A DNA stretch of 64,000 bases from Betaproteobacteria bacterium (GTDB lineage: Bacteria > Pseudomonadota > Gammaproteobacteria > Burkholderiales > SG8-41): the NCBI GenBank assembly GCA_028291945.1, contig JAQGNH010000343.1, positions 1-64,000 of the forward strand. The letters are read 5' to 3'. Positions 37,204-39,579 of the stretch are shown in pieces; position 1 is the stretch's first letter; every line of letters starts with the position of its first letter. The notes beneath the pieces are model-generated. The model saw only the letters and a list, made by a program, of their open reading frames with translations. It searched no databases and had not been told where the DNA came from. Made by a program: the position numbers and the translations under genes.

Positions 37204-37794
37204 ATGTCGCTCTTCGCAGGCACGCATTTCATCGCTTCCGCGCACGATGCGCACGAGCTTCCACCGGACGTGGGAAGTGAGATCGCGTTCGCAGGTCGTT
37301 CCAATGCGGGCAAGTCGAGTGCGATCAATTCGATAACACACCGCAATCGTCTCGCGTTCGTAAGCAAGACCCCCGGGCGTACGCAGACGATCAACTTTTT
37401 TGCTTGCGGCGCGAACAGGCGGCTCGTCGATCTGCCGGGATACGGTTATGCGGCTGTGCCGAAACATGAGCGCGCTCATTGGGGAACGTTAATAAGCACT
37501 TACTTATCACGTCGCAGCTCTTTGAAAGCACTTGTCTTGATAGCGGATGCACGGCACCCGCTTAGCGTCATGGACGAGCAGCTGCTCGGCTGGTATGCGC
37601 CCTATGGACAGCCGGTTCTCGTCCTGCTCACGAAGTCGGATAAGCTCGGACGCCAAGCTGCGCTCAACGCATTAAAAAGCGCGGAGGCGGTCTTGACGTC
37701 CCGCTACCCGGCCGCCACCGCTCAGTTATTTTCCGCGGTCAGCGGCACCGGCTTACGCGCCGCGCAGGGCTTGTTGCACGGCTGGCTGAAATAA
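37204..37794 (+). CDS. engB: Ribosome biogenesis GTPase EngB (YsxC/YihA)
   Basis: EngB assists 50S subunit assembly. The 196-residue GTPase has G1 GRSNAGKSS (31-39), G2 region KTPGRTQTINFF, G3 DLPGYG (76-81) and G4 TKSD (143-146). The GYGYA switch segment is characteristic. It is divergent from cytochrome c4 and lies upstream of a small-RNA locus on the opposite strand and of hemB. The C-terminus RAAQGLLHGWLK is standard. Confidence 0.95.
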   Translation: MSLFAGTHFIASAHDAHELPPDVGSEIAFAGRSNAGKSSAINSITHRNRLAFVSKTPGRTQTINFFACGANRRLVDLPGYGYAAVPKHERAHWGTLISTYLSRRSSLKALVLIADARHPLSVMDEQLLGWYAPYGQPVLVLLTKSDKLGRQAALNALKSAEAVLTSRYPAATAQLFSAVSGTGLRAAQGLLHGWLK

Positions 37795-37797
37795 AAA

Positions 37798-37829
37798 GCC
37801 CCCGGTTAAAGGGGAGTAAAACCGGGGGC
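37798..37829 (-). terminator. Second, distal terminator of the small-RNA locus
   Basis: GCCCCCGGTT (37798-37807) and AACCGGGGGC (37820-37829) form a perfect 10-bp stem. On the minus strand it is followed by TTTTTAT (37797-37791), so it terminates leftward transcription. On the plus strand only A runs flank it. Its 12-base minus-strand loop TTACTCCCCTTT is again C-rich. It lies just beyond the T run of the first terminator. Confidence 0.75.
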
Positions 37830-37855
37830 AAAAAAGCCTTAATAAGCATTAAGGC
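37830..37855 (-). terminator. Primary terminator of the small RNA
   Basis: On the minus strand GCCTTAAT (37855-37848) pairs with ATTAAGGC (37843-37836) around GCTT, followed by TTTTTT (37835-37830). This is a textbook Rho-independent terminator and defines the likely 3' end of the small RNA. Confidence 0.8.
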
Positions 37856-37904
37856 GCCCGCTCAGGGAGGAGAAGCGGGAGACGATGAAACATCGTCTGT
37901 TCGA
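37830..37904 (-). ncRNA. Probable small RNA with a CUCCUCCC anti-Shine-Dalgarno loop
   Basis: The engB-hemB intergenic region, read on the minus strand, is a run of stable hairpins. First AGACGATG-TTT-CATCGTCT (37898-37880); then CCCGCT (37879-37874), an 11-base loop TCTCCTCCCTG (37873-37863) and AGCGGG (37862-37857); then the terminator at 37855-37830. The second loop carries CUCCUCCC, able to pair with Shine-Dalgarno sequences. The 5' end is estimated from a -10 box at 37916-37911, giving about 75 nt. C-rich-loop RNAs of this kind (for example Neisseria RcoF, and the Rfam family called betaproteobacterial toxic small RNA) repress translation by blocking ribosome binding; membership of that Rfam family is my inference from structure and position, not a search result. 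Confidence 0.65.
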
Positions 37905-37910
37905 TAGACG

Positions 37911-37918
37911 ACTATAAT
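37911..37918. promoter_or_regulatory. Bidirectional -10 box for hemB and the small RNA
   Basis: ACTATAAT reads as TATAAT (37913-37918) on the plus strand, 51 bases before the hemB ATG, and as TATAGT (37916-37911) on the minus strand, just before the small RNA. One nearly symmetric element could therefore start transcription both ways. No strong -35 hexamer is seen in either direction. Confidence 0.45.
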
Positions 37919-37927
37919 TGTGAATAG

Positions 37928-39579
<1,652 letters not shown>

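Follow-up and report, generated by a model that had tools for sequence, protein, structure and literature searches.

A candidate envelope-stress small RNA of the anti-hemB family and its possible kinship with ErsA and sX13

Opposite the gap between engB and hemB, the minus strand of the window (the whole 64,000-nucleotide stretch of betaproteobacterial DNA analyzed here) carries an RNA gene of the Rfam family anti-hemB, RF02837. We think it likely that this gene encodes a trans-acting, anti-Shine-Dalgarno small RNA (sRNA) of the envelope stress response rather than an antisense RNA to hemB. In the open-access literature we found neither a function nor an inducer for anti-hemB, whose name points at hemB, and no paper that ties anti-hemB, or the Burkholderia RNA ncS04, to RpoE or to the sRNAs ErsA and sX13. 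A sigma-E-type promoter and a locus in common with ErsA and sX13 would place anti-hemB, in a testable manner, among the sRNAs that serve the envelope stress response across much of the order. Neither the promoter nor the synteny with engB and polA appeared in a first-pass annotation of this DNA, whose interpretation is borne out in part.

The anti-hemB RNA and its hairpins

The RF02837 match extends from 37882 to 37791 on the minus strand and scores 76.6 bits (E = 3.3e-16, 64 kb searched), spanning the full model (1-81) and exceeding the curated cut-off of 49.5. Together with our own covariance model R2, the fold and the promoter position, it delimits a predicted transcript of ~108 nt (37791..37898, minus strand), in agreement with the ~110 nt foreseen in the first-pass annotation; the 5′ end at 37898, the first base of a 5′ hairpin, is placed by that hairpin and the promoter. 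R2, which counts the window itself among its training sequences, gives 101.4 bits over 37900-37791. For these 108 nt (37898-37791, minus strand) the predicted fold has four hairpins and an energy of -49.0 kcal/mol (z = -7.56), and none of 200 shuffles is equally stable. The remaining Rfam matches on the minus strand of 37701-38060 at E ≤ 1, namely ar14 (28.5 bits), LhrC, PrrF and Qrr, are all far under their own cut-offs; the alphaproteobacterial ar14 (RF02344, cut-off 58.8) has a similar C-rich-loop architecture.

Judged by its family score, the window gene is a further copy of a known family, and the RNA itself is not new because its B. cenocepacia counterpart has already been published: in the text available to us, ncS04 of strain J2315 is a 105-nt RNA, alternatively named anti-hemB, documented by Northern blot, a 3′ end from RACE and Hfq binding cited from earlier work (PMC5688073). 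The available part of a computational study of another Burkholderia species lists anti-hemB among trans-acting RNAs (PMC3521395). The window RNA resembles ncS04/RF02837 in covariance-model family, in its hemB neighborhood (by name) and in length (105 nt published, ~108 nt predicted), but it has a conserved 5′ hairpin that lies outside the Rfam model.

The family is widespread: RF02837 exceeds its cut-off in 84 of 100 relatives, in 191 of 299 genomes of the order and in 10 of 187 genomes of a class-level sample; two of these 10 belong to the window's order, one of them being its own genome. At E ≤ 0.001, 94 of the 187 class-sample genomes match, as do 3 of 14 controls (E. coli, Caulobacter vibrioides and Deinobacterium chartae, none over cut-off), so weak RF02837 matches are not all real. 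The 53 class-level copies considered below are the best-scoring matches (L116-L122 and 40 further stretches) from these 94 genomes; 52 of them, from 45 genomes, come from outside the order, and L116 belongs to a genome (G107) of the window's own order. The class is presumably Gammaproteobacteria, going by its RF02232 (sX13) and RF01719 (ErsA) members, which occur in 4 and 1 of 321 class genomes, respectively (E ≤ 1e-5).

From 5′ to 3′ on the minus strand, the predicted RNA comprises the 5′ hairpin (AGACGAUG/CAUCGUCU, 37880..37898), absent from the RF02837 model; hairpin 1 (37857..37879), whose loop UCUCCUCCCUG contains the proposed seed CUCCUCCC at 37872-37865; hairpin 2 (37836..37855), followed by six U at 37835-37830; and hairpin 3 (37793..37829), a Rho-independent terminator with a U tail and a 10-bp stem-loop at 37829-37798. 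The loop of hairpin 3, UUACUCCCCUUU, is a second C-rich loop with ACUCCCC at 37817-37811. The first-pass annotation had described hairpins, six U after hairpin 2 and a 10-bp hairpin 3 within 37791-37918 (minus strand), and all are present; the 5′ hairpin that covariation supports is the one at 37898-37880, and 37899-37918 is predicted promoter rather than RNA.

We aligned 64 copies picked for variety from 110 copies of the order, excluding three loci (L094, L095, L107) discussed below. In this alignment, whose structure is that of the window sequence and is somewhat favored by that choice, 91.6% of cells hold standard pairs and 27 of 32 pairs show double-sided changes, in accord with the earlier proposal of stems conserved through compensatory changes. 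None of 500 shuffles attained any of five measures; shifting the structure by 1-3 columns left at most 53.0% of cells paired. Double-sided changes occur in 8/8 pairs of the 5′ hairpin (its innermost pair being unpaired in 29 of the 64 copies) and in 7/8 pairs of hairpin 2. CCUCCC is found in the first hairpin region of 108/110 order copies and 45/53 class-level copies, the full CUCCUCCC in only 63/110 and 8/53. The minus-strand sRNA with a C-rich, presumably anti-Shine-Dalgarno loop that had been proposed from the window alone is borne out.

The two terminators read in tandem from the window sequence are both there, but their tandem arrangement is not conserved: our pattern recognized hairpin 2 in 81 of 110 order copies, and in 32 of these the base next to the stem is not T, while 26 have a run of at least four T there (runs after one intervening base were left uncounted). 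We consequently rejected tandem terminators as a conserved trait. By sequence, hairpin 3 is the general terminator of the family copies.

The window RNA may bear a likeness to Neisseria RcoF/NmsR, and its CU-rich loops and short, structured form would also suit a betaproteobacterial toxic small RNA of the double-hairpin type, the family of which the first-pass annotation had taken it to be a member or analogue. The accessible text on ncS04 likens the double-hairpin RNAs to NmsRs (PMC5688073). However, RF02278, the model of the toxic small RNAs, has no match here at E ≤ 1 (cut-off 50), which refutes membership at the covariance-model level; the family is RF02837, which that annotation did not name. 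It is hardly credible that the gene is a toxic small RNA or the equivalent of RcoF/NmsR. At E ≤ 0.001 the sole RF02278 match in the window's own genome lies on another contig and scores 36.3 bits, below the cut-off of 50; the toxic-small-RNA-like locus there (L003:1501-1567, plus strand; G000:C357:13086-13152) has CUCCUCC and CCUCCUCC stretches.

A sigma-E-type promoter motif

Apart from GGAACT and TCTNA at constant spacing, the sequences upstream of the sRNA copies appear highly variable by eye. We take the GGAACT...TC motif to be the consensus of sigma-E (RpoE), an extracytoplasmic function (ECF) sigma factor. In the window it consists of a -35 element GGAACT (37926..37931, minus strand), picked out by motif count and by a matrix trained on rpoE upstream sites, and a -10 element TCTAT (37904..37908, minus strand) 5 nt ahead of the predicted start; in E. 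coli micA, a sigma-E-dependent gene used as a yardstick, GAACT-N17-TCTGA is separated from the annotated start by 6 nt. The pattern GGAACT N16-18 TC[TC].A occurs within 75 nt upstream of 59 of 88 copies; in the remainder of these loci it turns up in 3 of 5956 windows. These copies comprise 87 of the 88 over-cut-off matches among the 100 relatives (a second match in one genome, G002, was left out) and the sub-cut-off L088 (45.2 bits); L089, L090 and L092 were not used as copies. A scan of 37601-38100 for a sigma-70 promoter found none.

The RpoE of the window's own genome scores 333.5 bits and is followed by ORFs that resemble RseA and RseB by eye; TGAACTT-N16-TCAGT lies ~149 nt upstream of its gene. 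Searched with a regular expression over 350 nt, 21 of 30 rpoE loci have a sigma-E-type site and 2 have none, the start being unlocated in the other 7 (a raw count). A matrix trained on 19 rpoE-upstream sites, with a background of 5210 windows, places 41 of the 88 regions upstream of the sRNA beyond the 99th percentile, 13 of them also beyond the 99.9th; the 41 sites lie 43-53 nt before the model start, and the other 47 regions fall below the 99th percentile, some of them far below. The window site scores 9.7, at a background fraction of 0.001, and is at motif level an ErsA-like sigma-E/sigma22-type promoter. Among the class-level copies, 45/53 have a loose GAAC-N-TC site no more than 62 nt upstream (background, 142/3751 windows) and 30/53 a stricter site (background, 6/3751). 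These sequence patterns suggest that sigma-E, which responds to cell-envelope stress, turns on transcription of the sRNA.

Such control would not be universal, because the published qPCR table records no significant change of ncS04 under any condition (PMC5688073) and the three loci L094, L095 and L107, presumptively labeled Burkholderia-like (family f32), lack the motif found in the window: the rpoE-trained matrix finds no significant site upstream of them (background fractions 0.04, 0.08 and 0.50), and such a loss would fit the flat expression of ncS04. All three keep the RNA, with a TATATCATA or TATATGATA stretch in place of the motif. The same two observations could be accommodated by a constitutive C-rich-loop regulator with no role in envelope stress, its GGAACT box being a relic or a site for another ECF sigma factor; sX13 is described in print as constitutive and Hfq-independent, and the window's genome has 11 RpoE-model matches, one of them over the cut-off. 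Yet the motif, its position and its spacing persist across much of the order and the class, and the motif agrees with the sites upstream of rpoE; we regard purely constitutive expression as unlikely and favor sigma-E control. A genome-wide regulon could not be drawn from the strict pattern GGAACTT-N16-TCTNA, since it yields 2 sites in the window's own genome and 1 in the control; the window site, GGAACTA-TCTAT, cannot match it.

Genomic neighborhood and the hemB question

The ORFs at 37204..37794 and 37970..38983, both on the plus strand, are presumably engB and hemB (names as in the first-pass annotation); the former is convergent with the sRNA on its 3′ side, the latter divergent, and the sRNA lies opposite the gap between them. 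Among the 110 order copies, 88 sit between a convergent engB and a divergent hemB, hemB alone is found at 8 and engB alone at 2, a further 8 follow engB on its own strand and have no hemB beside them, and 4 have neither gene (contig ends limit some of these counts); engB is opposite and on the 3′ side in 90/110. No polA was found beside the order copies within the flanks examined, where the engB side is kept.

The family name itself raises the prospect of cis-antisense control, in which the sRNA or its transcription would repress hemB through leader pairing or promoter interference. The RNA is opposite hemB in 96 of 117 copies, and a plus-strand TATAAT (37913..37918), a possible hemB -10 box, falls within the sigma-E spacer. 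According to the part of a review available to us, the Hfq-copurified Bc7 has hemB as a predicted target and Salmonella RybB as a homolog (PMC6321483); going by the names, Bc7 would be Burkholderia RNA 7 (RF02837). But in all 96 copies with hemB the sRNA start, set 18 nt ahead of the model start, is 57-237 nt upstream of hemB. Transcription thus proceeds away from that gene, and the name anti-hemB describes a strand rather than a demonstrated target. The 8 same-strand copies downstream of engB have no hemB, and none was found within ~1.5 kb of the 53 class-level copies. Because its predicted 5′ end diverges from hemB, the RNA would not be mainly a hemB antisense RNA; the start positions and the copies without hemB disfavor that role, which we consider quite improbable, and we retain the trans-acting reading. 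By eye, the plus-strand TATAAT recurs in many copies of the same family; as a hemB -10 box it would make two overlapping divergent promoters.

Although the 53 class-level copies were selected on RNA score alone, 42 of them sit at engB and/or polA, that is, at the locus of ErsA, sX13 and Spot 42: 19 lie between polA and a convergent engB, 12 have engB only, 8 have polA only and 3 show the inverse order, with 11 at neither gene.

Relation to ErsA, sX13 and Spot 42, and proposed function

Three described sRNAs share features of this locus. ErsA (Pseudomon-1, RF01719) of Pseudomonas is encoded between polA and engB (PMC8575079), depends on sigma22, and represses algC with Hfq as well as the porin gene oprD (PMC8395346), as stated in the accessible parts of these papers. 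Its locus L205 has polA upstream and, by eye, a GAACTT-N16-TCATA site, C-rich loops and a hairpin where the RNA presumably begins, but lacks the CUCCUCCC hairpin. sX13 (RF02232, Xanthomonadaceae) likewise has hairpins with C-rich loops; the available text notes that it adjoins polA, draws a parallel to Spot 42, and reports that repression depends both on its C-rich loops and on G-rich motifs of the target mRNAs (PMC3771888). Unlike the window, the sX13 loci L206-L208 display no clear sigma-E motif by eye; an inverted repeat across the model start (for example, ACAGGCG/CGCCTGT), likewise seen by eye, hints that sX13 may begin with a 5′ hairpin as well. Spot 42 (RF00021) is encoded by E. coli spf in the order polA, sRNA, convergent yihA/engB, as are many class-level copies. 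None of the three families has a match at E ≤ 1 in 37701-38060 of the window, a search of 1.5 kb around L205-L208, the loci of ErsA and sX13, turned up no engB, and E. coli spf has no RF02837 match at E ≤ 5.

Our own covariance models detect the resemblance across families. The first, R1, was built from 50 sequences that included two copies of an sRNA array (L192/L209), and it scored sX13 at 29.3-34.1 bits, ErsA at 24.2 and Spot 42 at 16.2 (E = 0.015-0.022 for the last, not significant). R2 was built from 37 sequences without ErsA, sX13 or the array; over 213 kb that included E. coli and rpoE stretches, it found three sX13 loci at 30.0-32.4 bits and one ErsA locus at 25.3 (E-values of 3e-7 to 3e-5), compared with 11.7 bits for the best unrelated stretch, and it left Spot 42 not significant at 13.1 bits (E = 0.11). 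In the four-copy array beside engB (L209), one copy scores 48.3 bits with the sX13 model (cut-off 50) and 35.9 with anti-hemB, another 41.8 with anti-hemB and 37.1 with ErsA. Genome-wide, however, R2 also matches second C-rich double-hairpin RNAs in sX13 genomes (G358, 32.7 bits; G623, 30.2; G481, 29.0) and RNAs in genomes outside the class (28.2-32.9 bits). As other C-rich double hairpins reach ~28-33 bits, R2 scores near 30 are no proof of descent; the sequence-level link is weaker than the E-values suggest, so the connection to ErsA and sX13 rests on the locus, the promoter and the L209 bridge. In the ErsA genome itself (G479) R2 has no match at E ≤ 1e-4; among the genomes listed for its family (f179), G802 matched at that threshold, and G479, G712, G716 and G720 did not. 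Other C-rich double-hairpin RNAs were seen in an sX13-bearing genome (L227, G358) and outside the class (L229, L233); sRNAs with C-rich loops thus seem to form a structural class of some breadth.

Shared ancestry of anti-hemB with the polA/engB-locus sRNAs ErsA and sX13 is, on these sequence comparisons, likely but unproven. We lean, by a small measure, toward a more inclusive reading in which anti-hemB, ErsA, sX13 and many unnamed relatives would represent a single, ancient sRNA gene shared by Beta- and Gammaproteobacteria. This gene would be anchored at engB/polA and would have started out under sigma-E control, with C-rich anti-Shine-Dalgarno loops and a 5′ hairpin that caps the RNA. It would correspond, outside the enterobacteria, to MicA and RybB, would have lost its stress promoter in Burkholderia and Xanthomonadaceae, and may have Spot 42 as an occupant or descendant of the same locus. 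RF02837, RF01719 and RF02232 belong to no clan in the Rfam tables examined; the place proposed for anti-hemB would speak for comparing them and for including the 5′ hairpin in RF02837.

We posit that during envelope stress RpoE and RNA polymerase would start at about 37898 and produce an ~108-nt RNA ending at hairpin 3. With the assistance of Hfq in trans pairing, CUCCUCCC, exposed in loop 1, and ACUCCCC in the loop of the terminator could then pair with G-rich ribosome-binding sites and block translation initiation on selected mRNAs, with envelope proteins as a first guess. That the C-rich loops probably block ribosome-binding sites is argued by analogy; this step has precedent, since sX13 repression requires its C-rich loops and ErsA represses algC and oprD. 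In the window's own genome, AGGGAGGAG followed by N3-11 ATG occurs in 5 rows (4 distinct places), against 2 matches in the reversed control; by eye, the products are c-type-cytochrome-like, a tripartite-tricarboxylate-type binding protein and short ORFs, with no outer-membrane pattern among these sites.

Several loci carry the sRNA in tandem (L192/L209 of G486, L170, L195, L120 and L042), most copies having their own upstream motif; G486 has four copies beside engB, and G253 has five R2 matches. The window's own genome holds a second anti-hemB-like RNA (L002:1501-1570, minus strand; G000:C180:14787-14856), with CCCCU and CCCUCCCC stretches, at 29.6 bits with RF02837 (sub-cut-off) and 27.7 bits with R2. 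By eye, TGGCAC and CTGCT upstream of this RNA resemble a sigma-54 -24/-12 promoter, and an amidase-like ORF lies near.
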